Shown piece after piece: positions 152 to 58,745 of a DNA stretch of 64,000 bases. Positions within the stretch are counted from its first letter, which is position 1. The number at the start of each line of letters is the position of its first letter. Source of the stretch: Telopea speciosissima. Lineage: Eukaryota > Streptophyta > Magnoliopsida > Proteales > Proteaceae. The DNA lies in the NCBI RefSeq assembly GCF_018873765.1, contig NC_057924.1, positions 7,812,001 through 7,876,000 of the forward strand. The letters are read 5' to 3'. The translations under genes and the position numbers were made by a program. A model generated the notes under the pieces. The model did no database searches. It saw nothing but the letters and a program-made list of their open reading frames with translations, and had not been told where the DNA came from.

Positions 152-3100
152 GTGCAATGGGCTGGGTTTGACAAGCTAGAATGTGATGGAGATGTCATCC
201 GTCAAGTTCTCTTGCTGGGTTATCGATCTGGTTTCCAGGTTTGGGACGTTGAGGAAGCTAATAATGTGCTTGAGCTAGTATCCAGGCATGATGGACCTGT
301 TTCTTTTTTGCAAATGCAACCAAAGCCAATTGCATCAAAGAGATCAGAAGACAAGTTTGTAGACGTTCGTCCATTGCTTGTTGTTGCTGGAGATGGAATG
401 CTTTCTGGAGGTGGTAATAACCAGGATGGGAATGCGAATGTTACTACTTGCCAAGAGTCTGCAAATGGCAACTTTGTTCCCACAGTTGTTCGGTTTTATT
501 CCTTGCGGTCTCAATCTTATGTACATATTCTGAAGTTCAGATCTGCTGTTTACTCAGTAAGGTGCAGTCCTCGAGTTGTAGCTATTTCTCAGGCAGCGCA
601 GGTATATTACTTGTTTGTGCTTCTCATTCAGTGATATCTTAGCTCAAACAACGATTGAAAAAAGGCTTACATTTTCCTTTTCTCTTTTCATTTTATTGCA
701 GATACATTGTTTTGATGCTGTAACATTGGAGAGAGAATATACTATTGTTACATGTCCTATAGTTTCGGGTAGTATTGGTTCTGGTGGTATTGGCTATGGA
801 CCGCTTGCATTGGGTCCCAGGTGGTTGGCTTATAGTGGAAGTCCTGTTTTAGTTTCAAATACAGGCCGTGTCAGTCCACAACATCTTACACCTGCTGCAA
901 GTTTCTCTGGTTCTTCAGATGGCAGCCTAGTGGCACATTATGCAAAAGAATCAAGCAAGCAACTTGCTGCTGGTATAGTGACCCTCGGAGATATGGGATA
1001 CAAGAAGCTGTCAAGGTATTGTTCTGAACTCCTACCAGATTGCAATAATTCTCTGAAACCTGGAAGTCCGGGCTGGAAAAACAACGGCACTGTCAACGGC
1101 CATTTGCTAGATACAGATAACATTGGAATGGTATGCTTTTCTCTCAATGTTATTATCTTGTGCTGTTGCTAAAAACTCTTGTGAGCTATGTTAATGTACA
1201 TATTTTTTTGATTCACTTGATTTGTTCCACTGAATCTACTTCTTGATGAATATTTGGATGTTTGTGCGTTTAACATGTTTCCCATTATTCCAAGCAAATC
1301 CACTGTTGTTAACTCAAGATTTTACCCTGTTATATCCCAAAACTGATTTCAAATCTTCTCAGTCAAAAGCATAAGTTTCCTTTCCTTGGCCTACTTTTCT
1401 CTGTGAAGAAAACAAGTGCTGTTATGATAACTATTCTATTTAACTGTATTTGTTCTTTGTTTGACAGTATGACCTATCTTGACTGCTGCAGGTAATTGTC
1501 CGGGATATTGTCTCTAAATCTGTTATAACCCAGTTTAGAGCACATAGGAGTCCTATTTCTTCATTGTGCTTTGATCATAGTGGAATCCTGTTGGTGACTG
1601 CTTCAATTCAAGGTCACAACATCAATGTCTTCCGTATAATACCCCCACTTGCAGGAAATTCATCCGGATCTGATGCTGGTGGTTCTTATGCGCATCTTTA
1701 CCGGCTGCAACGTGGCTTCACTAATGCGGTAATAGTATGATATTTGTTTTATCTTTTAATCAAATAGTTTTTGGCATTTCCTTGGTACTACTTTATTCTT
1801 CCATTTGTTATCAGGTTATACAGGACATCAGTTTCAGTGAGGACAGCCACTGGATTATGATAAGTTCCTCAAGGGGAACGAGTCACTTGTTTGCAATATC
1901 TCCTTCAGGAGGGTCTGTAAACCCTCAGTCTACTGGTTCTGGTCTTATTAATGGCAACAATGGCCTGGGTGTGATGACTAAGACTGCGGTTCGTTGGCCA
2001 CCAAATTCAGGTCCGTCAAAGCTCAATCAACAGAGCTTTTGTGCATCTGGTCCCCCTGTTACATTGACAGTTGTTAGCAGAATAAAGAATGGGAATAATG
2101 GGTGGAAAGGCACTATGAGTGGTGCTGCTGCAGCTGCGACTGGCAGGGTCAGTTCCCTTTCTGGGGCTATTGCTTCTGCTTTCCACAACTGCAAAGGAAA
2201 TGATTTGTATGCAAATGACAGGTCATTGAGTACCAAGTACCATCTTCTGGTTTTCTCTCCTTCTGGTTGCGTGATTCAATATGTGTTACGTCTATCTAAT
2301 GGGCCAGAGTCTGGGACAGTTTTGTCGGGATTGAGCACTCCTTATGAATCATCTCCAGATAATGATGCAAGGTTGGTTGTGGAAGCACTCCAGAAGTGGG
2401 ATATATGTCAAAGGCAAACTCGAAGAGATCGAGAAGATAATCTTGACATTTATGGTGAACAGGGTAATGGTAGAAAAATTTTCCCTGAGGGAGTAAAGAG
2501 GATGAATCCTATTTATCCTTCTGAAGGGCATGCGCTTACAAAAGTGAAGATCAATGCTGAGGAAAAAAATCATTTGTATATCTCAGAAGCTGAACTGCAG
2601 ATGCATGAAGCTCGGATTCCTCTGTGGGCAAAATCTGAGGTATTTTCTTATGATGCGGACAAAACCATAAACTTTTCTACACTTGTTTTTGCTGGTACTT
2701 TGACCTTACAGATTTCGCATTTTGTATTCTTAGTTCTCATAATTGTCTGTCAGATATACTTTCAGGTAATGATGATAGATGGCGTGAAGACAGTAGGGGA
2801 AAATGCTTCAGGAGGGGAAATTGAGATTGAAAGGATTCCAGCTCGCATGATTGAAGCAAGATCAAAAGATTTGGTTCCAGTGTTTGACCATCTTCAGACC
2901 CCAAAATTTCAACAGCCAAGGTGCACTGCCATTCTCTTAGTTTGTTATCTATGTATGATGTTCTCTTTTACTTGTCGACATAGGCTATATATTTCATCTT
3001 TGTTCTTGTATTTTGGAGATGCTTTGTATTAGTAATAATTCGACTGATGACAGGGTCATGCTGCTTGTTATTCAATCCGGCACGAATTTGTCCCACATTG

Positions 3101-3877
3101 GAACAAACAGAAGATGAGAATTGGTTCTCTCATAATTCATGGATCCACCAACATTAGAGTTTAGTTGAACAGTTAATTCCTTTGTACCATTCTTTCTACC
3201 TTTTGCTTTCGGTGCTCATAGAATACCTTATTTGTGGCTGCTTCAACCTTGCTGTTGCTTGCATATCCTAAATTTTAAGTCCAAGTGTCCAACTCAGCTT
3301 TTACTACAAGTTAGAGAGCAGTTAATTATGATTTGTTTCATAGAAATCAACATCTGAAATTGTTAACAGGCTTGCTTCCTTTTCTTTCTTTGTTGAGGGG
3401 ACTAATCATCTTGGTGTATCAGCCATTTTAGCTTTTTTGAAAGCGAGAGTTAAGCATGTTGACTGTCTGCAGTTACAGGAGTATGTAAACTGTTCCTTTT
3501 TTTTTCCCCCTTAATTCAGGATGCCTGCTTTAGATAACAATCGAAACTGTTCACCTCAACAAAGGTCTGGCCTGTCTGAAGATGGGAGGCTTTCATGCAG
3601 AAGCAGCTGTAGCTCTCTTGACTGTATGTCTGAAGTTGGCACTATGGTGGGTGAACTTCAGAGTGGCATTGAAGAAAATGGTTGGGGTGGTCGCCGAACT
3701 TCATCGGAATCAACTGAGGGCTTTGTAAATAACAATGACAGCCCCATGACGAAGACTCGGCTCGAGTTTGTAAATAATAGAGAGAGTCTGATGGATACCG
3801 ACCTCGAGTTTGTAAATAACAATAAAGAGAGCCTGAAGATGGAGAATCACTTAGAGAACGACAATGAGTTGGACTAA
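152..3877 (+). CDS. ATG18: Autophagy-related protein 18, BCAS3-domain class (ATG18f/g/h type), 5' part outside window
   Basis: Plant ATG18 proteins are WD40 beta-propeller (PROPPIN) proteins that bind phosphoinositides and act in autophagosome formation. Six exons are visible: 152-601, 702-1130, 1492-1728, 1815-2639, 2766-2920 and 3520-3877 (TAA). They join in phase to 817 residues. The first visible exon begins V-Q-W-A-G-F-D-K-L-E after a weak AAAAG acceptor, so the start codon and roughly the first 100 residues lie to the left; bases 1-151 are intron. Propeller blades run to about residue 450. The phosphoinositide-binding FRRG motif appears as the divergent YRLQRG (about residues 363-368), as in the long plant ATG18 paralogues. 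The C-terminal half has the BCAS3-type region (around LLVFSPSGCVIQYVL and HEARIPLWAKSE). The acidic tail repeats F-V-N-N three times. The family is clear; the choice between f, g and h is not certain. Confidence 0.93.
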
Positions 3878-4510
3878 AGGTAAAGTAATTCTGATTGAAC
3901 GTAACCCATGGAGTACTTTGCATGTTAGTATTTGCCATAACAGTAGTTTGTGGATTTCATAACTGAAGTAATCGTTTGATAGAATCATAGAACTGTATGT
4001 TGATAGAATCCTATTGTGCCATATATGTGTTTGGTTATATGCCTAAATCACTATGACAAATTCCAATTTGCTTGTCAAGTCTTATCATAGGCTTCCAGCA
4101 ACCCTTCACTTTTAGGTTCCTATAAATCATGTAGATGATGGTCCTGGTTTTTTTTTTTTTGGGTTCATTAGATAATAAATTAAAAAAGATGTTGATGATT
4201 TTTATATATTGGCATGCAGCAGGTGATGGTTGGACTTCAACTAAGTGTTTCATCCTCCTCGGGTGTGTGACAAATTCTTTTTATTCTCCTACGAGGTTTA
4301 TTAACTAGTGTTAATATTTGTGGGTGATAATGTAGAGAAGAGAGCGGAACAAGAGTTTACTACTACCAGGGAACTGTGGATATTGTGGTGGGGATTCCAT
4401 TTCTGTTTGACATTGTAAATAGCAGATTCTTGGATATATTTTCCAATGGTCAGTTGTAATAATATGTAAATAATACAAGCACCATAAAGTGTTTCCAAGT
4501 ACGAATTTTC
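3878..4510. other. 3' flank of ATG18, no gene
   Basis: AT-rich sequence after the ATG18 stop codon, probably the 3' UTR and flank. It holds a short T-run near 4148. I see no further open exon on either strand. Confidence 0.6.
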
Positions 4511-5033
4511 CTCTAAGACTATGATTGGTTGCAATGCAAATTAAAGCAAAGGGAAGGGAAAGGAAAATTTTCAAACCTAAAAAAGAAATTCTGGTAATTA
4601 TTATCTCATGTGACTATATATCATTCCATGTTTGGTTATTAAATTTTACTTCATTTTCCATCCAATTCCTTTTGATTTAAAAAATAAAATATAAATTACA
4701 TATAAAATTTATCATTACTAAAAACGATAAGAAATTGTGAATTTCAGTTCACTTTCCATCCAATTCCTTTTGATTTAAAAAGTAAAATAAAAATTACTTG
4801 TAAAAATCATTATTAAAAATGATAAGAAATTCTGAATTTCACTTCACTTTCCATCCAATTCCCTTTGATTTAAAAAGTAAAATAAAAATAATATGTAAAT
4901 ATATTCTTACTATAAAGGATAAGAAATTTAAGTAAATTATACAATCATATGAGATAATGATTACAAAAATTTCGTTTTTAGTTTTGAAAATATCCCTTCC
5001 CTTTAAATCCCTATGCAACCAAACGAAGCTACA
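4511..5033. mobile_element. Foldback MITE (family A) with an internal tandem repeat
   Basis: The two ends are about 100-bp inverted copies of each other: the left arm has GGTTGCAA, then GGGAAGGGA, then an ATTATCTCAT block, and the right arm has the same blocks in reverse complement, ending GCAACCAAACGAAGC. The interior (about 4645-4925) is three tandem copies of a 95-98 bp unit starting TTCCATCCAATTCC. No coding capacity. Related copies lie at 9890-10065 (partial) and 60328-60670. I could not identify a clean target-site duplication. Confidence 0.75.
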
Positions 5034-14928: not shown

Positions 14929-16325
14929 TGATCCTCTACTGCAATATTATTTTTCATCCTACTTTCATTGTTCTTGTTAGTCCAACTTAGCTAGGGTAAT
15001 TTTATTCCAAAATCCTATTCTTAATGGATAAGAGGAATGATTTCCTTATTGTCTTCTCTTAAAGTGGAGAGATATAGGCATATAGTTAACCAAGGAATGG
15101 AAATGAAATTTAAAAAAGAAAAAGAAAAAGAAAAAGAAAAGAGGCCTAGGGTGGTATTAGATGGGTGTCGGCTTGAATTGATTAAGCGAGATGTTGTAAC
15201 TTTCTTTTGATTTCTTGTTGTCTTATTCCTAAAAGTTATTTAAGTATAGATAAAAAATGATTTTAAAATAATTTGAAATTGACTTGTCATTATGTAGTGT
15301 TACTGTCACATGTGAAATAATAAGATTTAACTTCATTAAAAAAACCAAGTCTGTTATACTAAAAGGGTAAAAAAAAAAGTAAGATTACAACTTCTTTAAA
15401 GGGGTTTTCTTGTACTCATCTCTTTCTTTAAGGGGACTGTCTAAGTGACACTTCTATAGATGAATTTAGAATTTGTAATTTTCTTTTGATTGCCTTTGTC
15501 TTATTTTTAGAAATTCTTTAAATCAATTATAGTAAAAAATGGGTTTTTAAAATAATTTGAAAGAGACTTACCATTATGTTATAATAAAAAAAAATCATTG
15601 TTTGTTTTTGAAGGCATCTGATAAATTGAAAAAACGGTCAGTCTTGCAAATTTTTCTTGTAAATATATAAAATGATAAGATTTATCCTCATTGAAGAAAA
15701 ATAATAAGTTACATCAAAAGGACACAAAAGTAAGGTTATAAAGTATTTGTCACCTCTCATCAATAAGAAAATCCCTTCTTTAAATGATGATATGGAGACA
15801 CGACTGTAATTATGTGTGTGTATATTCACATTTTTCATTAATTAAATTGTTTGGATGACTATTTTTGTTAAAATTATAGTTAACTTTTTTTTTTGGTTGG
15901 AATTGTAGTTATCTTGTTATTGCATTTTGTCCAAAATTGCCCTCTACGTCAACTAGTAAAGATGGAATTAGATGTCTAATAGAGAAGGTTGTTTTACTAA
16001 ATTACTAACCAATTAAAACTTCTAAAGATGCTCGTTAAGCTGTGAAATGTATTATCCGAGGTTCAATAAGGGTTGGTCTTGTTTATAAGAATTAGGGTTT
16101 TGAATTTCTTCGTGAATCAAGCGAAAGAGACTAACACAACACATCAAGATTCTTTTGCGCGAGATAAGATTGTATATCTTAATGCAAACACGTCACAAGT
16201 TAATAGTGGCAATAAAGTTCTTGGTAGCAAGAGGGAGGGAAGATCTCCACTCATTCATTCAACGTCTGCAATGAGGTGCGACTCACAACAAACAAAGGGG
16301 GATTTCTTGAACATTCCCATTGGCG
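14929..16325. other. 3' flank of the cyclin gene, no gene
   Basis: AT-rich sequence with a duplicated motif (ATTTTTAGAAATT-type phrases with AAAATAATTTGAAA near 15255 and 15546) suggesting a decayed tandem duplication of about 290 bases. An open frame at 16073-16381 runs into the tRNA relic and is not considered a gene. Confidence 0.5.
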
Positions 16326-16399
16326 TGCATCTAGCAGGAATTGAACCTACGAATTTGACAATTATAAGTTGGATGACTTAACCATTAAACCATGGATGC
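16326..16399 (-). pseudogene. trnI-CAU: Decayed copy of plastid tRNA-Ile (CAU)
   Basis: The minus strand reads GCATCCATGG at the 5' end, the T-arm phrase GTAGGTTCAATTCCTGC, and a 3' acceptor strand pairing with the 5' end, 74 bases in all. This is the plastid trnI-CAU gene as I know it, with roughly ten substitutions. It continues three prime with CGCCAATGGGA, also as in plastid DNA, and then the similarity stops. The anticodon loop reads CTTATAA where the plastid gene has CTCATAA, so the anticodon would be UAU. Together this indicates a small, old nuclear insertion of organelle DNA, not a working tRNA. Confidence 0.85.
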
Positions 16400-22300: not shown

Positions 22301-25300
22301 CCTTGTAAAGACAAAAGATTAATAAAAAGTAAAAAAGAAAAGAACATAACAACAATAACGACACAACTCAGTATTATTCCAACTAAAAGGGGTTGGCTAC
22401 ACGGAGCCCTCCAATCAGCTCTATTCGAGGGCATACATGAAACAAGACCTAAGTTATGCATGTCTTTCCTCACCACTTCTCCCAGGTTCATTTTAGGCTT
22501 GCTCCTTGCTCTTTTAGTACCTTCAATTTGAATCAAGTTACTCTAAACTGTAGCATTTGAAGGCGTCAGTTGAACACAACCATGCTACCTGACTTTCTTG
22601 AAGCCAATCTTGAATTGGGACAACTCCTAGATCAGCTCTAATATGATCATTTTGTATTTTATCCTTTCTAGTTTTGCCACACATCCATCTCAACATCTTC
22701 ATCTCTGCGACACTTAGCTTATCTATATGACGCTTCTTAACTGCCCAACATTCTGCACCATACATCATAGTCAATAGTATGACTGTCCTATAAAATTTTT
22801 CTTTAAGCTTTAAAAGAATCCATTAGTCACACAACACTCTGGATGCACCTCTCCACTTCATCCATCTTACTTTAAGTCTATGTGAAACATCATCCTCTAT
22901 ATCACCTTCGTTATTGAGGATTGATCCCAGATACTTAAAATAATCACTTTGCAGAATCTCCCTCTCATCAACTTTCACCCCCTCATCCGTTCTGGAGTTA
23001 CTAAAGTTACACACCATATACTATGTTTTTGTTCTACTTATTTTAAAACATTTTGCTTCCAAAGTTGATCTCCATGACTCCAACTTGGTGTTAAATCTTG
23101 CCTTTGGCTCACCCACCAATACAATGTCATTTGCAAAAAGCATGCACCCAGGAACCTCATCTTGGATGTCCTTGATTAACTCATCCATGATAAGCGCAAA
23201 CAAATAAGGGCTTAAAGCTGATTCTTGATGTAATCCAATTGTAATTGGGAATTCACTCCCTTGACCCCCCATGGTTTTTGCACAGTCACCACATCATCAT
23301 ACATATTTACTTGAAACACCTCTCTTCCCTAACACGTACCAGATTAAATGTACATCAGTGATCTTATGTGCATTTCTAGCACCTATTTGTGCTGGGGTAT
23401 TGAGTCAGGCCTCTCTTATGTTTATTGCACTTGTGCTATTTGCCATCTGTCTTTATTGACTATGCTTAAGAAGATTTGGAATTCTGAATAACAATGCTAG
23501 TCCTTTCAAAAATGAAACATTCAACCAATTTGTAAAATGGTGAGCTGGGATCTACCATGTTACACTTTCAAGCGAGTAATCCTTAAACGATTTTTTTTCC
23601 TCCATGACTGTTTGATTGTTTTTAAGTGTACTACTACGAATTTTTTAGAGTGTTAATTATGGGTGTTTTTGTGCCAAAGATAAGCATAACTAGGTATGTA
23701 TTTGCATTAGCATTTCTAGCATTCATTTTCCCAGTGTTCTGATTTTTGAGTGTGTGTTAAATATGGGTGTTTTTGTGCCAAAGATGAGCATAACTAGGTA
23801 TTTATTTGCATTAGCATTTCTAGCGTTCATTTTCCCGGTGTTCTGATTTTTGAGTGTGTGAGTGTGTTAAATATGGGTGTTTTTGTGCCAAAGTAAGCAT
23901 AACTAGGTGTTTATTTGCGTTAGTCATTTTCTCAGGGCTGGTTCTCCAACACTGGGAAGCAAATTTTGATTTATATAATATTCATATTATAGGGGTTTAA
24001 TAACTGATTTATGCATTTCTATTCTTTCTTATACTGAATGTGGGGAGCGATACTGTGCAGGAAAAGGTTCTTTTGGCGTTAGAGAATGCTGGGATTTTCA
24101 CTTCTGGTGGTTTGGTTAAAGATAAGGTACTAATCATTGTGATCTTGGAAAGATATATCTGGCAATGTTCAAACTACTAATGAATCATGATTCCAGTAGA
24201 ATTATGGTTGTAATTTATTTCTACCATCAGATTTCTCACTTAATCCAATTCTGCAAATTCTCTGTTGTATTAATGTCTATTGTGTTGTTATAGCATTGCC
24301 CACAACTGCCTTATCCTGAAACCTTGAATTGCTAATAAATTTTCAATTTTTCTCAGTGTTGCCTTTTCTGTTAATACTTTCTCAACTTTTCTTCGGAGAT
24401 GCTAATAATGTTTTGGTTTACTTAGTCTGTAACATTGCAAGAATCAGTTAACGCTTGTTAGAATCTTTCGCTTGTTTAGAAAAGCTTTATCTGGAAGGAG
24501 CTGAATTTGCAAATATTTACATAAATGCATGAAAAAAATTTAGAGTAGCCAAAGAAAAAATGTGAATCCTTTGTGACACTTTTATGCAGAAGAGCATCAT
24601 TGACATCCTAGCCTTCTCAGTATCCTTCCCTGGAAAATTTTTACTGCATCTTCCTTTTCTCCTAGTTGGTAGTGCCTCTAAACTAACGTCAATGACCAAG
24701 ATTGCTTAAAATTCTAACCTTCTAAATTGAGTGTTAACCAGACTCAGGGAGGCCAAGACAGGTCCCATAACTGGTGAAATTGGGTGTTGCCTGTGGAATT
24801 ATTTGAGTTAACCCCAAACTTGGTTACACTAATTGATTCTGATTGGGCCTGAGAATACTAGTTTTGCTCCTTGTCCTGGAGTTGTCTGACTAGTAATATT
24901 TCACTTGTCAATTTTTTATTTTAATTTTTAGGTGTTTATATCTCTGATACTTTTGATAGAAGTTGAGAAATTATTATTCTTATTTTTGATATGTTGTTCT
25001 CTCTCTCTCTCTCTCTCTCTCCCCCCCCCCAACTCCGGGTTTTGTTTATTTCCTTCTTTCTTCACGTGATGTTTTTTGGTATGGCTGCAGCCGACTTTTA
25101 ATCCCATACAAAATGCACCCGCAGGTTCTCTTCTGTAGCATAGAAAATGGCAGGACATCATTTGTTCGACAATTGGAACCAGATTGGCATATTGATACAA
25201 ATCCTGAGATCATCTTTCAGTTGGCTGTATGTTTCCATCATCCATGCTCATCATTCTTGGCCTGTTTTTTCCACTACTTTGCTCATTATAGAATGCATGC

Positions 25301-26835: not shown

Positions 26836-27143
26836 ATTGCCAATTCACCCTTTCAAGCAAACTTCGGACAAACTCTGTTTGGTTGGACTAGATTAGCCCC
26901 ATTGATACCTACTCGATTATGGGCATAAGTTGCTGCCTGAAAACTCAAGTCAGGTTGTAATTACTTATAGAAACTACTTATTGCTCTCTCTCTAAATCAC
27001 GACGAATCTTCGAACATCTGCCCTCCAAAAATCATTCTAGAGAGCTATAAAAAATCTTGCACGTGAGAAGTAATAGCTAAGAATCTTATTTCTTCCAACA
27101 GCAAAATTTTTTTAAGATGACATTAAAAAATCAAAGCTTTATG

Positions 27144-27493
27144 CTCAATGGACTTTCCTACAATGTGTTCATGTGAAACTGCATGGGCAGAAACAGCAAC
27201 CATCAAATGGCGATACTACCTCCCATCTATAAAATTTTCACTGTTTTGAGTTTTTTGGGCTCAATGGACCTCCCCACAATGTGTTCATGTGAAACTGCAT
27301 GAGCAGAAACAGCAAGCATCAAATGGCAATACTATCTCCCGTCCATAAAATTTTCACTGTTTTTGAGTTTTTTGGGCTCAATGGATCTCCCTACAATGTG
27401 TTAATGTGAAACTGCATGAGCAGAAACAGCAAGCATCAAATGGCAATACTACCTCCCATCAATAAAATTTTCACTGTTTCGAGTTTTTTGGGC
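27144..27493 (-). repeat. Tandem repeat, three copies of 116-117 bp, just downstream of ATXR2
   Basis: CTCAATGGA starts copies at 27144, 27260 and 27377; each contains ACAATGTGTT, GAAACTGCATG(A/G)GCAG and AAATTTTCACTGTTT. The array ends 57 bases past the ATXR2 stop codon in gene orientation, so it probably lies inside the 3' UTR. Confidence 0.93.
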
Positions 27494-33500: not shown

Positions 33501-36500
33501 ATATGTTAAATAAAGTATTCAGTGGTATGGGAAATGAGATATCCATTCACAATTTTATGTTTAAATTTTAACGATTAGGACTCTATCAATTTGATGAAAG
33601 AGCAAAACTTGGCCACAATTCAGAGGCATAGTAGTTTATGTAATGAACTCACTTTTTCTTATAACCCATTGACAATGGTTTCCAAGCCTCCAAGAGCAGA
33701 GAAAATCCATAATCCTCTGAACTATTCAGATGACAGTAACTTTCTTGGTTTTCGAGACGAGCTGCTTTCAATTTCTTGTAATTTAAGATAGTGAATGAAA
33801 CTGCCTGAAAATTCGGATCCGAGTAAATCAGGTTATGGATGATCAATCTGCAATTCAACTTCCTAGTTCTTTTACATTTCTATCTGCATATTGAACAGGA
33901 TAATTTACCATTTCCAAAAATAAGACAAGCATGACACATGTACTAACATACTCCGATACATTGAATTTGCCTTCAGCATTTACACAAGTGCGGTTTGTTT
34001 GATATTAAAATAACATATGTAATGTTTTTGGTATATTTCAACTTCTATTATCTAAACTATTTACCAAAAACTTCTATTATCCTCTGTCACCAATCCAAGG
34101 GTTAAGATTGACGCCAATCCTCCATCTGTCTACTAGTTATTTTTTATCTCATTCCTATAGCAAGTGCACATTTTCCATAATTTTAACTTGGACATTGTTG
34201 CATTTGAACAAAGAAAAAGGCACAATCAAATGTATACACAGACAAAGGCGTGATCAAATTTATCAGACTATAGACAAAGAATTGAAATAAGGTTCAGAGT
34301 GTATTTCCAAGAACTAATCCATGATGGGTACAAGCAAGCTGCAAGCATACCTTAGCAGCAGGGAAGAAAATGTCGTTTGTTTCTGAGGAATGGAAAAAGA
34401 AAAATAGCAATAATTAGAAGAAAAATATAAGAAACATGCCTTGAATCTTTGAATATATAGTCAGACATTACCATTAGCATGTTGTACAAACTTCATAAGT
34501 GCCTCCCTGCATGAAGATCCTGACCTCTCTCCCGTGCACAATAAAGAATGAAACAATTCCCAATCAGCTTCCGCACATAATTTGCTGCAAAAGTTTGCAA
34601 TTCAACATCATTTAATATAGTCTTCAATATAAGAGTTTAAGATAAAGATTAATAAATGATCATCAGTGTTAATACTCGAGTTTCCAATCAAAAGCCAAGT
34701 GTATTTGGGAAGCACTATATGTAAGAAATAGCAGGAGACCAGGAGTATCGGACTACTACATCAAATAGATTCTGTTTAAGGGACTAATTTTCATATGGGA
34801 AACATGAACAACCTCGGAGATTATCATGGAAATTGAATTACAATGTTACGATGCTGATCCTCCATTCTTTTCCTTTTCCCCTCCCTTTCAAAGAAAAGGA
34901 TCTGTAATAGGTGGAAATGAGAAGAAAGGGGCAAAATGCTCTTGGATATAGAAGCAGCCCTGGGTATAAACATCATAAACAAAAAGAACTGAATGAGAGC
35001 TTAGAGAGAAGAGAAAAACGAGAGAATGAGAGAATAATAACTTGTTGTTTTCATTGATAGGAAAGCCCCTCTATTTATAATAGAGGGGAAATTACAAATA
35101 GAAAGGGGAACTCCTAATCAGATTAGGAATTCCTAATCATGATAGGATTCCAAGTTACAATAGGAAAAGAACTAGAACTAACAATTCAAATTGAAACTAA
35201 GACTAACAACTCACAGTAGAATTAGGACTTGACATAATTAGAAACTAGGACTCCAACTAGGACTAGGAAAATAGAAGATACACATATCAACCAAATCACT
35301 GTTCATGTGAACAGTGTCACGTGAATAGTACTTCTCAACACTCCCCCTCAAGCTGGATTATACAAATAAGTAAAGAAAGAAGATCCAACTTGAACTAAAA
35401 AAAAAAGAACTCCTAATAATGCTAACACTCCCCCTCAAGTTGGCGCATACAAGGTACTAATGCCCAACTTGAACAAAATGAAAAAAACTAAGTTGTAGTA
35501 GAATCCAGCTTGACATATGAATGCAGCTCCCACATAAACCTTCAAGAACTTGAAAAAATAGATCTTCAAAACTTGGACAAACATGATCAGCAAACCGGGA
35601 CTGGAATGTCTTCCAAAAAGGCAGCTTTCAACGATCTTCAATAGCTATCCAGTGATGAATCTCAGATTGTCATAGTGACTTAGAATCTTGAAGTGAAATA
35701 ACTAGAGCAACAAGTAGCGAAAACAAACTGAATCAGGCAACGGAAAAAAACTGTATCAATCCAATCGAAAGTCCTCAAATAGGCAACAACCAAATATCTT
35801 CAATATTTCAATACTTCAATTTCCCCTTTACGGCAGACTCAACCCAATAACAAAGTAGATACCCATTGGCAATGGTGAAAACTCTGATCGTCTATGCTTT
35901 GCACCAAGTGTTCCTGCAAGTTCTGCTTCTACAATGTCTACAGGTGTACTGTACATAATCCCCCCCTCACGTGTAGTACACGTGGACATAACAGAGATAA
36001 TGTAAAAGATAGGGCAAAAACATAATATTCCAAAATTTTCTAAAAGTGCTATGAGTAATTAAAAAAGAAGGAATGGCAAAATTGTAATTTACCAGAAGTT
36101 TCCAAAGGTGTTATGGGTAAATGCCAAAGGTATGTTTTGGGATATGAAGGGAATTAGAATTATTGAAAGGAAACGGTGTTGGAAAAAAAAAGGATGGCAT
36201 GACTGTAATTTGGTGGAAATCCACTTTTAATTACAATCCAAGCCAAGGGGTAAACTGTTAATAAACCAGAATTTTCAAGGGTCAATTGGGTAGTCAAATA
36301 GGAGAATGTATTAAACAGGTAATGGCAGTGCCGTAAATAACCACAATTTTGCAAGGATTTTTTGGTAATCAAAAAGCAATGGATTGCAATAAGTAAAATG
36401 ATGGTTATGGAGAGTGGCAATTTGGTAAATAATCACAATTTTCAAGAGGCTCTTGGGTAAATAAATAGGGGAATGGCACAAGCTAAGGCAAAAAAAAATG

Positions 36501-39500
36501 TTACAGTCGTAATTAAGGTGAAATCCAATTTTAGCACAAGCTAAGGCAAAAGGGTAAATCTGGAATGAATTATAAAATAATGACAAAGGAGACTTAGCCA
36601 CAAAGGAAGGGGTATATACGGAAACACATAAAGTAGATAAAGATATGACTAAAGGAGATACTGTAGATGGACTTTAAGTGGAAGGGTAGTTTGGAGAAAC
36701 AATATTAAAAACAGTTTAAAGATAAATACCATGACTAGCAAAAGAGGGAAGTCACAATGAAGAGGAAGTCTACCTCCTCACAAAACAGAGGCAGCGTTAC
36801 AAACAAGGCTGTGAAACCACGACTCTTGCGGGAGTAGGCTCTCTTCTTATAGAGGACAACAATCAACAATCGGCAGCAGAGATAGCAGCAACAATCGATA
36901 CCAGTTGAGACAACGCAGCATCGATCAGCTAGCACAGCCGAGATATTGATGAACAAGCAAATACTTGATGGAGAATGAAGGCGAGACAGCAAAGCAGTTT
37001 AATCGATCAGCAAATCATGGTAGTATAACAACTCCTAATTCTACTATGAGTTGTTAGTCTTAGTTTCAGTTTGAGTTGTTAGTTCTAGTTCTTTTCCTAT
37101 TGTAACTTGGAATCCTATCATAATTAGGAATTCCTAATCTGATTAGGAGTTCCCCTTTCTATTGTAATTTCCCAATAGAGGGGCTTACCTATCAATTAAA
37201 TAATTCAAGCATTACAATCAATTCTTCTTCCATCTTCTCTTCTCTCTCAAGTTACTGGTTACAGGTCCTAGGTTTTCTACATGATATCAAAGCTAGGCAA
37301 CCAGTGACAGATTCTCTCCAAGATTGCCGTTTTGAGAGTCGGTTTGGGTTTTTTGGTTTGAAGAAGAAACCCCTAGTTCAAAGAAGAAGAAGAACTAGGG
37401 TTTCATGTATTGAGTTCGTATGACTTTCGTATACTCGGTTCCACCTTGATGTTTGAATATCTCGTTGAAGATTTATTCAATAAACTCTACATCGATTTGA
37501 AAAGCTCTTCTTCGAGATGCGAACATTGATTTGTTTATCTCTACATCGATTTCGAATATGATTTCAGCTCTTCTTCCGAGATGCGTTGCGGACTACATAC
37601 TGATTTGTTTATCGATTAATGAGAAACCTGGTTCTGGGCTGTAGTTGCTTTTGAAGAACCTGCTTTCGTTGAAGGTACAAACCCTTTTGTTTTTCCTCTC
37701 GATTTGATGGTGATCAAGGGGTTGAAGTTCAGGACCTGCCCAATTTTTGCTCGGTTTCTCCTTGCTTTTCGTGAGGAAGAAGAAATCTTCTTCATTATTC
37801 TCGTTCGCTGGTTGTTAAGAGGTTTCTGATCTCTGCCGGTCTCGAATCTGGTCTCTGACTCCTCCTTTCTCTAGTTTCTCGGTTGCAAGGTTGAAGCCGT
37901 TCTTTCCCAGATTTCTTGGTTGCAAGGTTGAAGACGCCACCTTCTTTTTTTATCTTGGGATTATATGCTGATCGAACTCTTCATTGTCGCTGCTGCTGTG
38001 TGGTTCGATATGCTTATTGCTTCCTTTGATGTGATCGATTTCTTCGCTACTTTCTCTGATTCAATCGAGTCATGAGGCTGAAGATGTTACTGTACCAAAG
38101 GTTTGATTGCTGCAAACGGTATTCTGGTTGCAGATGTTCTTGTAGTTTCTATCGCTTCTGGCTGGTTTTCCCCCTTGTTATCGAAACCCTTGAGATCTTG
38201 TTTTCACGGTTTGGTGGTTGCTTGAGGAAGACGATGAATGTTTCACAATGGGTTTCCTTTTATGAGTTGGTTTCTTTTTAGTTACTTTATTCCTAAAGTC
38301 TTATTTTATTCCTTTAAGTTTCCCTTCATGCCCTTAGCATCTTCCCTTATTTGCCTTTGTCCTTATTTTACTCTAAATTCCCTTCATGTCCCCTTACTTC
38401 TTTATTTGCCAATTACCCCTTGAAAATTCTAGTTATTTTTCAAATTGCCACTCTCCATAGGCATTATTTTACTTGTTGCATCCAATTGCTTTTTGTTTAC
38501 CAAAAGGCCCTTGCAAAATTTTGGTTATTTACGGAACTGCCATTACCTTTTAATACATTCCCCTATTTGACTACCCAATTGACCCTTGAAAATTCTGATT
38601 TATTACCAGTTTACCCTTTGGCTTGGATTGTATTTAAAAGTGGATTTCCACCAAATTACAGCCATGCCATCCTTTTTTTTCCAACACCGTTTCCTTTCAA
38701 TAATTCTAATTCCCTTCATATCCCATACCTTTGGTATTTACCCATAACATCTTTGGAAACTTTTGGTAAATTACAATTTTGCCATTCCTTCCTTTTTCAT
38801 TACCCTTAGCACCTCTTGGAAAATTCTGGTATATTATGTTTTTGCCCTATCTCTTACATCATCTTTGTTATGTCCACGTGTACTACACGTGAGGGGGGAA
38901 TTATGTACAATACATCTACAGACATTGCAGAATGTAGAACTTGCAGGAACATTGGTGCAAAACATAGAAGATCAGTTTTCTCCACTATTGCCATTGGGTA
39001 TCCTTCGTTATTAGGTTGAGTTGCCGTAAGGGGGAGATTGAAGTATTGAAATATTGAAGATATTTGGTTGTTGCCTATTTGAGGACACTTTCGATTGGGT
39101 TGATACAGTTTTTTTCCGCTGCCTGATTCAGTTTGTTTTCGCTACTTGCTGCTCTAGTTATTTTACTTCAAGATTTTATGTCACTATGACAATCTGAGAT
39201 TCATCACTGGATAGCTATTGAAGATCGTTGAAAGCTGCCTTTTTTGGAAGACATTCCAGTCCCGGTTTGCTGATTATGTCTGTCCAAGTTTTGAAGATCT
39301 ATTTTTTCAAGTTCTTGAAGGTTTATTTGGGAGCTACATTCATCTGTCAAGCTGGATTCTGCTGCAACTTAGTTTCTTCTCATTTTGTTCAAGTTGGGCA
39401 TTGATACCTTGTATGTGCCAACTTGAGGGGGAGTGTTTGCATTATTATGGAGTTCTTTTTTTTTCCTTTTAGTTCAAGCTGGATCTTCTTTCTTTACTTA

Positions 39501-41732
39501 TTTGTATAATCCAGCTTGAGGGGGAGTGTTGAAGTACTGTTCATGTGACACTGTTCACGTGAACAGTGATTTGGTTGATATGTGTATCTTCTATTTTCCT
39601 AGTCCTAGTTGGAGTCCTAGTTTCTAATTATGTCAAGTCCTAATTCTACTGTGAGTTGTTAGTCTTAGTTTCAGTTTGAGTTGTTAGTTTTAGTTCTTTT
39701 CCTATTGTAACTTGGAATCCTATCATAATTAGGAATTCCTAATCTGATTAGGAGTTCCCCTTTCTATTGTAATTTTCCCTCTATTATAAATAGAGGGGCT
39801 TACCTATCAATTAAATAATTCAAACATTACAATCAATTCTTCTTCCATCTTCTCTTCTCTCTCAAGTTATTGGTTACAGGTCCTAGGTTTTCTACAGTTA
39901 AGCTATGATTAGTACTGCACAATTCATTGCTTCTTTCTCAATGGCTCATTCTACAAATTGGAAACAGGTGCATTCAATGGTATGGTCTGTAGACAAAGTC
40001 AAACAAGCAATGCTCTCTCTGTTTTAATTTATTTACAAGTGTCTTCACACATGCAAGCACACATATTTTCAGAATAACAAAACCGAAATGGGGGAAAAAA
40101 AAGGTCTTCAATTATAGAGACTAGTGATTAACTGGATCCTTTTCTATGTTCCACACATCTCGTGAATTATGATTACAGTACCAAAGTGTGTTATGTTCTT
40201 GAAGCCCTGGTAAATTCATGGTAAAATTTTCACCGCAAATGATATTTTACATGAAAATTTTCTTATTTTTTCAATGTCATTTTTTGCATTTTACATCAAA
40301 ACAAACAGCAGAAAATCGTTTTTTATAAGAAAAGTTCACTTTCTCAACTTTGCACATGGAAACAAACGGATCATTAACAGAAACCTTTGTCCAAGTAACA
40401 CCATGAGCTAAACAGCGATTATTACTCTAAACTGTAGCAAAGAAACTAGTTTTCCTAACCTGCAGTAGTTTGCTTCTCCACATCCACCAGGACAGGGAAC
40501 AACTGAAGGTAAGGAGAACTGGTTAGAGTGAGGCAAAACCAAGTCACCATTCATTAATGCCGCGATAACCTCTTTAGGGAGAGGAATTTTATCATCTTGA
40601 TCACTTGATGAGCATGATTCTGATTTTTTATGACCCATCATAAGAGAATTCTCTTCTTCATCCAATGAATCATCTAGACAAAACCCTTTTGAAGTGTGTT
40701 GATGCATTCCCACACAATCCTTGCTCGAAGATAAACCCAAGTCTTGCAGATAGAGTTTCCTCCCAATTTGAAGTTCTATTGAACCAATAAATCGGAAACA
40801 ATAGCTACATACCAAACAGTCAACCTGCAAAGTTGGAAGAAGGAAAAAAGATCCAACCTTTTTATGCCTTTCAAAAAAATAGTGGAAGAAATGAGCTTTA
40901 GTGGAGTGAAACAAAGTTCAGATAAGACCTTATTTGAACTGTGCTGAGCACCAACAACCATTTGATCTTTCAAAACAAGATTATCTTCTGCAAATTCTCT
41001 TTCTGCATAGACACCTGCAGCTCACCGGTTGAAATAGAACATATCACACCATGTAACCCAATTTGCTTTCTAATAATGCATCGAAAGTGACAACACTCAA
41101 CAAACTTAGCATGAAGCTAAGTAGTACAAATAACGACACACACAAAACTGTTTGTTAAAATTCATAACCGAACAAAAAGCAGATTACAAGAATCGCACAA
41201 AGAATTACCATGGAAAAGGAAGGAGGAAAGTTAAACAATGGAGAAAAAAGAACGACATTTTAAAAGATGCATACCCTTCCCGTACTCTCCATCCTGCTTT
41301 ATGCTGATACCTCGGCATTGCCTGGTTTTTATTAGCTTGTCGAAATAGTCCTGCACACTCCAAAGATTAGGAAACAATTAAACCGTGTCATCGATCTGGA
41401 AAACAAACAGAAATATAATCTGCTCTTAAAGCGGATGAAGAGCATGAAAAATAATCACATTTACTTCCAAATTAAGTGTGAATAATTAGGAAAAACTGTT
41501 CGTTTGTCAGCATTAATGGAATTTCACGGAATTGAGTCAAAGAAAGAACACAGATTATAATGTGAAAAAAAAAGAGTCAAAAAGGAGGAACAGAACACAG
41601 AAAGATAACCGAACGCGATAGAGAGAGATGGGGAGGGGGGGGGGGGACCTGAACTTCGTGAGGAGATGGAGGTTTAAGAAGCGTATCGATTTTATCCGCG
41701 AACTCAACATCGAGAGTGCAGATGCTCGTCAT
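27550..41732 (-). CDS. ATXR2: SET-domain histone-lysine methyltransferase ATXR2
   Basis: ATXR2 is a plant SET protein reported to raise H3K36 methylation at LBD genes during callus formation. Fifteen exons, 5' to 3': 41732-41649, 41350-41275, 41014-40929, 40824-40460, 34584-34472, 34382-34351, 33804-33653, 32645-32558, 32164-32116, 32017-31963, 31775-31706, 31624-31555, 29944-29868, 27892-27836, 27660-27550 (TGA). All phases close: 494 residues, against about 473 in Arabidopsis. The SET domain begins near GVYAE (residue 54) and is split by a MYND-like cysteine insert (CLVCSYCFRF; CPGGCGEANYC; C-terminal H-x4-C). It resumes with LVVASPVEDYFLYIDDLP, the cofactor-site NHSCCPN (425-431), Y463 in ISYIDED, and post-SET cysteines C484, C486 and C489. 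No catalytic motif looks damaged. Intron 4 (5.9 kb) hosts the paired LTR elements. The first donor is followed by a long C run (41640-41648). Confidence 0.97.
28490..28870. repeat. Dispersed GATCGG/AATCGG-type repeat in ATXR2 intron
   Basis: Two patches (28490-28600 and 28790-28870) of imperfect CAGATCAG, AAATCGGAT and GAATCGG phrases, as at 10850-11100. Non-coding. Confidence 0.5.
30679..30873. mobile_element. Mutator-type foldback MITE (family B) in ATXR2 intron 12, with 9-bp target duplication
   Basis: The element 30688-30864 has inverted ends: the left GGGGTGAGTTTTCTGTCTGG and the right, in reverse, GGGAAAAAGGAGCCTGTCTGG, both followed by AGTGTGGC(C/T)CCTGTG. Perfect 9-bp direct repeats TTATTATTT flank it (30679-30687 and 30865-30873). 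The GGGAAAAA end and GTGTGGCC motif make it a relative of the element at 7674-7841. The interior is GC-rich and short; no coding capacity. Confidence 0.88.
34985..37020 (-). mobile_element. Non-coding LTR retroelement, minus orientation, 5'-truncated
   Basis: Its 3' LTR is about 34985-35340 (starting TGTTGAGAAGTAC on the minus strand at 35340), preceded in element sense by the polypurine tract CTTGAGGGGGAG at 35341-35352. The internal part (35353-about 37020) has no gag or pol and contains several roughly 100-base imperfect repeats around TTTGCCATTCC and CCTTG(A/C)AAAATTTTGG. The outer 1.5 kb is a reverse-complement relative of 38380-39896. No 5' LTR or primer-binding site is visible, so the 5' end is lost at the junction near 37020. 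Confidence 0.8.
37030..39896 (+). mobile_element. Non-coding LTR retroelement, plus orientation, partial 5' LTR
   Basis: The 3' LTR is 39527-39896 (TGTTGAAGTACTG ... TTTTCTACA). The partial 5' LTR ends at 37281 with the same GTTTTCTACA and is followed at once by TGATATCAAAGC, a two-mismatch version of the initiator-methionine tRNA primer-binding site. A CTTGAGGGGGAG polypurine tract precedes the 3' LTR. The interior carries no recognisable gag or pol; a 152-codon open frame at 38351-38809 overlaps the internal repeats and reads as repeat, not protein. It is copia-like in its signals and fits a LARD/TRIM-type non-autonomous element. It lies in ATXR2 intron 4, antisense to the gene. Confidence 0.85.
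39551..39566. promoter_or_regulatory. Perfect 16-bp palindrome with G-box core in the LTR
   Basis: CTGTTCACGTGAACAG equals its own reverse complement and centres on CACGTG. It lies 24 bases into the plus-oriented 3' LTR; the minus-oriented LTR has diverged versions (GTTCATGTGAAC and CACGTGAA). A binding role in the LTR promoter is inference. Confidence 0.5.
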
Positions 41733-57500: not shown

Positions 57501-58745
57501 TACTAGTTTGAGCTTCATGCTTTCTGTTATATAACACAAACCAACATGGATCACTAAAAAACTTTAAAATGGCTTTTTAATTAAATCATGATCAAACAAC
57601 TGTGGTTTCTGAAAGAGTTGAGTTTGTATCTTGTAGATCAGAATTCAGAGAGAAGTTAAATTATGAAGCCAATATTTTTTACTACAATGTTTGAATGTCT
57701 CTTTTCCATCCCTCCTCCCACCCCCAATTTCCTCCGCTTTAAATTAGTCATAGTAAAGAAGGAAAAGAAAAATTTTCAGTTTTTTAATGTCCATTACTAA
57801 AATTTTCTCCCCTCTGTCACAACAGAAGCAACCGGTAATAAAGAAATGGTTAGGATTTGCTTGAAAGTGGTCTGTTTGTAAAAAATCTGGTTATTTCTGA
57901 CATACTTATGGATGTTGTTGCCATGTTGAGTTTTTTTAAGGGGCCGATGTCTTGGTTATACACTGCAATATGAACTGCAACTTCTTGTCTTCTTGCAATA
58001 TTCAAGTACTGCTTGACTTGGAAACCTGTACTATTTGCCTTATTTGTATGTGGAAAATTAAACTTTGATTTTATTCAGAAACAAATATATATGTATATAT
58101 ATATATATATATTTGATGTATGTGTTAGTATGTTCTTTGTGTTCCACTTTTCCCCTACGAGAAACAGTCAAGTCCTAATCTATGTTGATTACAAGCATAT
58201 TGTTGGAATTATCTCACTTTTGAAAACTCTAGGACATTGGATGCCTTCATATACCAGTTTGGCCTCTCCACCTAATAGCTTAAGTTGTTATGTTGGACGC
58301 TTCAACATGGCATCAGAGCCATCAAGCCCACTATGTTAGTAAAAGATTTTTGTAAGGTTACCCTAAGGAGGGGCCACATATGCCACATGTATTGCAGCCC
58401 AAAAGAGGGCAACACCTGAGGGGGAGTGTTGGCAATTATCTCACATTAAAAAACTCTAAGACCGTGGATGCCTTCATATAGTGGTTGGGCCTCTCCTCAT
58501 ATTAGCGTAAGCTTTTTGGGTGGATACTTCAACACTTATATTAAGTTCTTTCATTTTAAAATTCTTGCGTTGTTTATGGCTTTAGTCTCCTAACAGATTT
58601 TACATGTTTGATCCATAGGTTTGGGAAACAAATAAGATATGCTTCTCGTAAAGCCAGAGCAGATACCAGAAAGCGCGTGAAAGGTAGATTTGTGAAGGCT
58701 GGTGAAGATTATGACTATGATCCTCTTGTAGAAAGAAATGACTAA
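54527..58745 (+). CDS. COL9: CONSTANS-like B-box/CCT zinc finger protein (COL9/COL10 type)
   Basis: COL9/COL10-type proteins are nuclear regulators of flowering and light responses. Four exons: 54527-55066, 55373-55597, 57121-57446 and 58619-58745 (TAA), giving 405 residues (Arabidopsis COL9 is about 372). Two tandem B-box zinc fingers lie at the N-terminus: [13 protein letters not shown]...[18 protein letters not shown] (about residues 5-42) and [13 protein letters not shown]...CENC (about 48-73), followed by the [11 protein letters not shown] motif. The acidic middle is variable. The C-terminal CCT domain (about 348-391) reads [10 protein letters not shown] across the last splice, then [20 protein letters not shown] and the family ending DYDYDPL. 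The second donor (GAG|GTTCCT) is weak, so retention of the 1.5-kb intron 2 would give a B-box protein without CCT. The last intron carries a miniature LTR element. COL9 versus COL10 cannot be settled by eye. Confidence 0.93.
58201..58534 (+). mobile_element. Miniature LTR retrotransposon (TRIM/SMART-like), complete
   Basis: Two direct terminal repeats of 107 and 108 bp, 58201-58307 and 58427-58534, both starting TGTTGG(C)AATTATCTCAC and ending CTTCAACA. The left repeat is followed with no gap by TGGCATCAGAGCC, a one-mismatch initiator-methionine tRNA primer-binding site (58308-58320). The right repeat is preceded by CCTGAGGGGGAG, a polypurine tract. The internal region is only about 119 bases and cannot code. 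The flanks CATAT (58196-58200) and CTTAT (58535-58539) may be a decayed 5-bp target duplication. It lies in the last COL intron, sense orientation, 84 bases before the CCT exon. Confidence 0.93.

Follow-up and report, generated by a model that had tools for sequence, protein, structure and literature searches.

Two non-coding LTR elements joined head to head in an intron of an ATXR2-like gene of Telopea speciosissima

The host intron and its two inverted arms

We analyzed a stretch of 64,000 nucleotides from Telopea speciosissima (hereafter the window), in which a minus-strand gene holds two LTR elements, here called element 1 and element 2, within one intron (Table 1; relatives at other loci of the genome carry L numbers). 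On the minus strand, 40460 is the last base of the upstream exon and 34584 the first of the downstream one, with the intron (40459-34585) between them. The donor ACTGCAG/GTTAGG and the acceptor TTTTGCAG/CAAATTA preserve the frame (...GEANYC-SKLCAEADWE...) through a MYND finger, which spans the exon join in a Pfam scan of the hand-joined exons (E=1e-5, above the cut-off); this bears out the claim of a preliminary description of this DNA that both arms lie inside one intron. A SET match in a separate piece of the hand-joined protein was weak (E=0.085, below the cut-off), and a PDB search with the host protein gave MYND and SET matches that were likewise weak only (best E=0.011). This minus-strand MYND gene is, by its sequence, consistent with ATXR2, a name that we adopt from the preliminary description. 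In a search of the genome (822.9 Mb, 1287 contigs), the left flank and its exon proved to be single copy, with one match (itself) from one candidate, and since the flank matches itself alone, no empty site is available.

Table 1. Features of the intron and of the two elements it holds (positions in the window)
Feature	Position	Strand	Basis or remark
Intron holding both elements	34585-40459	-	5,875 bp, of which 4,893 bp is element sequence (35004-39896)
Left inverted arm	35003-36465	-	self-BLAST, aligned inverted to 39862-38401
Right inverted arm	38401-39862	+	self-BLAST
Element 1, fragment	35004-37033	-	relatives' alignment
Element 1 3' LTR, without last 33 bp	35004-35340	-	L029, L030, L031 and L035 run 33 bp further to TTTTCTACA
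Element 1 polypurine tract adjoining LTR	35341-35352	-	AACACTCCCCCTCAAG at 35337 and 35424
Element 1 second polypurine tract	35428-35439	-	AACACTCCCCCTCAAG at 35424
Element 1 interior, 3' portion, without 5' LTR	35341-37033	-	break at 37029-37033
Join of element 1 and element 2	37029-37033		5-bp microhomology; relatives read CAAGT on either side, the window CAACT
Element 2	37029-39896	+	without first 107 bp of 5' LTR
Element 2 5' LTR, first 107 bp missing, 10-bp internal deletion	37029-37281	+	matches 39634-39896
Element 2 degraded primer binding site	37282-37293	+	TGATATCAAAGC; relatives TGGTATCAGAGC or TGGTATCAAAGC
Element 2 non-coding interior, ~2.2 kb	37294-39526	+	ORF list, Pfam scan of 8 of 31 ORFs
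Element 2 polypurine tracts	39422-39433 and 39515-39526	+	tract matches at 39421 and 39514
Element 2 3' LTR, whole	39527-39896	+	TGTTGA...TTTTCTACA, then GTTAAG

Self-BLAST aligned the two arms, each ~1.46 kb long, in inverted orientation over 1477 columns at 90.7% identity (E = 0), and a MAFFT alignment gave 91.8% over 1448 ungapped columns. The spacer (36466-38400) measures 1,935 bp. Both the long inverted match and the separation of about 1.9 kb reported earlier were thus recovered, and the phrases named as shared are present in both arms. By 100-column slices, identity was 78.8% in the innermost (first) slice, 71.1% at the LTR end (last), and 86.6%-98.0% in the others; the ungapped blocks between the arms include a perfect complementary block of 53 nt.

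Several details of the preliminary description required adjustment. The left LTR, placed at 34985-35340, is real, but its start is not as described: family homology begins at ~35004, and 33 bp of the LTR end are absent. The elements do meet at their 5' ends, at 37029-37033 by the relatives' alignment instead of near 37020. Both 5' ends are truncated as claimed; element 2 nonetheless retains most of its 5' LTR and its entire 3' LTR. The imperfect internal repeats of ~100 bases are real but weak (41-nt copies, 66-73% identity, spacings of 92 and 74 nt; an 80-column self-BLAST match at 68.8%). In agreement with the reported lack of gag and pol, none was detected in the 8 of 31 ORFs that were scanned with Pfam, which gave no hit above the curated cut-off and two chance-level hits below it, and the elements contained no Rfam family at the gathering threshold and no tRNA found by ARAGORN.

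Relatives of element 1 match up to 37039 in the genome search and diverge past CAAGT in the alignment, and L029, L030, and L031 continue ~500 bp beyond the inner break, reaching a 5' LTR. As judged from these relatives, the CAACT at the join is the CAAGT microhomology plus one later change. The 5' part of element 1 was found at seven other places at 96-98% identity and at one at 89%, to query base 560, with three shorter matches; the LTR part of this query starts at base 545-551, and all remaining matches are to the LTR part. No clear microhomology was seen at the outer join. Element 1 retains neither end and shows no target duplication, so that an integration of its own is putative, and both elements of the window are without the ends needed to read a target-site duplication.

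The LTR pair of element 2 is 96.2% identical over 261 aligned columns (K2P 0.040), in a comparison that took in a few bases beyond the LTR itself. At plant substitution rates of 0.65-1.3e-8 per site per year, this divergence would correspond, as a rough figure, to ~1.5-3 million years.

A non-coding LTR retrotransposon family

We fetched 20 loci of 5-8 kb (L029-L040 and L042-L049), picked for matching the family. The LTR and 3' interior recur at 19 of these, the exception being L034, whereas the 5' interior of element 2 is matched over only its first 137 bp at 12 loci, in four stretches at L040, only close to its end at L045, and not at all at 6. Exact 5-bp target duplications flank the copies at nine loci (L029, L031, L035, L037, L038, L039, L045, L047, and L048), which are 2.8-3.3 kb long; five more loci have 4-of-5-bp matches, some of them chance, since each locus was tested with several combinations of ends, and six have nothing. 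A primer binding site follows the 5' LTR, and a polypurine tract (CTTGAGGGGGAG) precedes the 3' LTR, in the relatives; in element 2 the former is degraded and the latter good. Direct LTRs with TG...CA ends are present in element 2, one cut LTR remains in element 1, and whole pairs are found in the relatives. From these LTRs, primer binding sites, polypurine tracts, and target-site duplications, we conclude that the relatives are a genuine non-coding LTR retrotransposon family. We take the tRNA of the primer binding site to be iMet, and we regard its type, together with the TGTTG ends, as a presumptive hint of the Copia superfamily.

LTR pairs were 94.3-99.6% identical at 13 loci, and 99.2-99.6% at the young copies L035, L036, L039, and L048; the L033 pair was 80.7% identical, with 35 gap columns. 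The family has two polypurine tracts ~90 bp apart, LTRs start at either, and both elements of the window carry both. Long LTRs of ~454-460 bp begin at the upstream tract; their target duplications are exact at L029 and L039 and agree in 4 of 5 bp at L036 and L049. The short LTRs are ~356-388 bp where measured (L031, L035, L038, and L048), with exact duplications at L031, L035, L037, L038, L045, L047, and L048. These two LTR lengths apparently reflect alternative plus-strand priming. A tandem array was considered as the cause of the ~90 bp of interior sequence before some 5' LTRs and was rejected in favor of longer LTRs from the upstream tract, given the exact duplications at L029 and L039.

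Two of the fetched loci have unusual structures. L036 (G000:C6:680500-688500) is a dimer with three LTRs, whose units are 99.7% identical over 3194 columns and which is surrounded as a whole by the near duplication ATTCG/ATTTG. At L037 (positions 1185-4054), an exact 5-bp duplication, CTAAC, bounds a copy in which an inverted LTR abuts the sequence preceding the 3' LTR, a self-integration-like or nested product to judge by its layout.

Other repeats were seen elsewhere in the window. A tiny LTR element of ~334 bp at 58201-58534 has direct repeats (58201-58307 and 58427-58534) at 79.6% identity, a PBS-like TGGCATCAGAGC at 58308, and a PPT-like CCTGAGGGGGAG at 58415; it resembles the grass SMART elements, which measure 292 bp (PMC3281118). 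At 16325-16399, Rfam matched the plastid ycf2 5'UTR family on the plus strand and a tRNA on the minus strand, where ARAGORN found no tRNA; this is perhaps a plastid-derived insert. Short tandem arrays at 4642-4928, 23646-23929, and 27143-27493 have consensus units of ~95, 104, and 117 bp.

Descent of the arms and origin of the pair

A tree was built along the shared 1.2 kb from 13 rows that had been picked by likeness to either element; in it, element 1 clustered with L029-L032, L035, and L036a/b (seven other rows from six loci) at a support of 100/100, and element 2 fell outside. Element 1 is 97.0-97.5% identical to L029-L032, compared to 93.8% to element 2. Self-BLAST found no mutual match at E 1e-4 between the 5' internal halves of the two elements. 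The divergence figures were mixed: K2P between the arms was 0.088 along their whole length and 0.086 within the interior, compared to 0.040 between the LTRs of element 2, but it was just 0.047, hardly above 0.040, over the U3 part of the LTR, so that divergence alone cannot separate one event from two and the tree is the main evidence. As judged from that tree, neither arm is a copy of the other; they come from different branches of one family, and we reject their origin by a single duplication.

L033 has an element-1-type 5' interior (97.4%) and lies outside the element 1 group, and L036 lies inside the group and has none; this mismatch makes the 5' halves a weak sign of descent. The family is modular, its 5' and 3' halves not travelling together, which suggests that members recombine.

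We also considered the possibility that the pair moves as a unit, and this was rejected. The join was carried by none of the 42 other matches listed, from 40 scored among 494 first-look candidates, a sample from which a rare copy of the join could escape; head-to-head arms were present at 0 of the 20 fetched loci, and the two elements fall in different groups. An opposite-strand LTR was seen at one of these loci (L037). Each of eight groups of neighboring matches had one orientation, a count that says little because neighboring matches are mostly the two LTRs of one element. By our own arithmetic, with ~900 elements taken as half of 1813 first-look LTR candidates (40 scored), the number of head-to-head pairs expected by chance at distances up to 5 kb is of the order of one, and the pair therefore needs no special mechanism.

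Taken together, these data make it probable that the locus is ordinary intronic transposon debris, in which two different family members were joined head to head by separate events. In the order of events that we reconstruct from the structure, the different groups, the truncations, and the join, two members of one non-autonomous LTR retrotransposon family would have reached one intron separately, DNA breakage would then have joined their 5' ends at the microhomology, and loss of the outer end of element 1 would have left a fossil inverted repeat. As it stands, the locus would represent an inverted repeat built from two separate copies and break repair, not a mobile pair.

A reading that overlaps with this one, and to which we give tentative but appreciable weight, is that element 2 inserted normally and that the repair of a later break in its 5' LTR drew in a copied piece of the element-1 type. 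A single repair of this kind would account for the two ends of element 1 as well as for the missing 107 bp of LTR, in keeping with a fragment that is truncated at both ends and lacks a target duplication, and with the microhomology at the inner join. However, two insertions followed by two deletions give the same ends, no donor stands out among the four nearest rows (97.0-97.5%), and the outer join is without clear microhomology. It is much harder to see the pair as a palindrome made in one go by an accident of reverse transcription or integration. L037, where an element flanked by a single exact 5-bp duplication encloses an opposite-strand LTR, shows that the family includes inverted LTR structures, and the U3 divergence of the arms is close to that of the element 2 LTRs. 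Both points would fit such an accident, but the two arms cluster apart with a support of 100/100 and their 5' halves differ; the tree rules out a single event except through an unlikely joining of two different RNAs. An assembly artefact is equally improbable, given that the arms differ at ~8% of sites, the flanking exons are in frame with each other, and the left flank is single copy.

Predicted hairpin and comparison with known systems

The preliminary description had further proposed that the pre-mRNA carries long complementary arms as a source of double-stranded RNA. The arms can indeed pair by prediction, with a longest Watson-Crick run of 114 nt, 18 runs of at least 21 nt (724 nt in total), and a duplex energy of -2215 kcal/mol. 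This prediction sets a ceiling on what the sequence permits and leaves the 1.9-kb loop, splicing, and proteins out of account. We infer that a long intronic hairpin is physically possible; double-stranded RNA as its real consequence stays conjectural. Under the reading of separate insertions and break repair, transcription could form a long imperfect hairpin, the arm RNA would most likely be removed with the intron, and the locus would be treated like other intronic transposon copies, with no special effect expected.

It is unlikely that the hairpin pre-mRNA is diced into small RNAs in the manner of sirtrons (whose original paper is reportedly Chen et al. 2011), methylating the intron in cis and the family in trans and altering splicing or polyadenylation. 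The 1.46-kb stem with its perfect runs would suit such a process, but the stem is mismatched at 8-9%, and the loop and splicing would limit pairing. The presence of small RNAs alone would prove little; transposon copies commonly attract them. There are precedents in a head-to-head inverted repeat, VIM4-VIM2, that feeds small RNAs in Arabidopsis Cvi (PMC13213937) and in the intron-derived, DCL2/3/4-dependent siRNAs named in a review (PMC5545994), although neither counts as evidence on the present locus. A limited literature search turned up no earlier case in which intronic LTR elements lying head to head serve as a source of double-stranded RNA. Were the hairpin diced, one intron would yield small RNAs matching two branches of a family that includes young copies, and the locus would offer a natural test of the idea that intronic inverted repeats formed by accident contribute to transposon silencing. 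The stronger version, in which the ATXR2 intron is a built-in silencing trigger and small RNAs from its hairpin target the two branches of a family that was active recently, seems very improbable to us; if true, it would link the activity of a likely chromatin-modifying gene to transposon control.

Compared to known systems, the locus shares with VIM4-VIM2 and PAI4-PAI1 (PMC13213937) an inverted repeat, head to head in the VIM case, that could give double-stranded RNA. VIM4-VIM2 differs in its demonstrated small RNAs, its genic arms with 100% identity over the first exon and intron, and its 50-bp center (PMC13213937), whereas the arms here are transposons at ~91% identity around a center of 1.9 kb, whose pairing is predicted. 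Sirtrons (PMC5545994) are single-stranded introns with internal double-stranded stretches, as here, and have small RNAs shown, whereas here there is a predicted stem only. With TRIM and LARD elements (PMC7215508), the family shares LTRs, a primer binding site, and a polypurine tract with no gag or pol seen, and their tandem multi-LTR form corresponds to L036. A TRIM is a short element with almost no interior, which sets the family apart: the interior measures ~2.2 kb in element 2, the nine relatives measured are 2.8-3.3 kb and have far more interior than the TRIMs of PMC7215508, and the LTRs of the family have two alternative starts.
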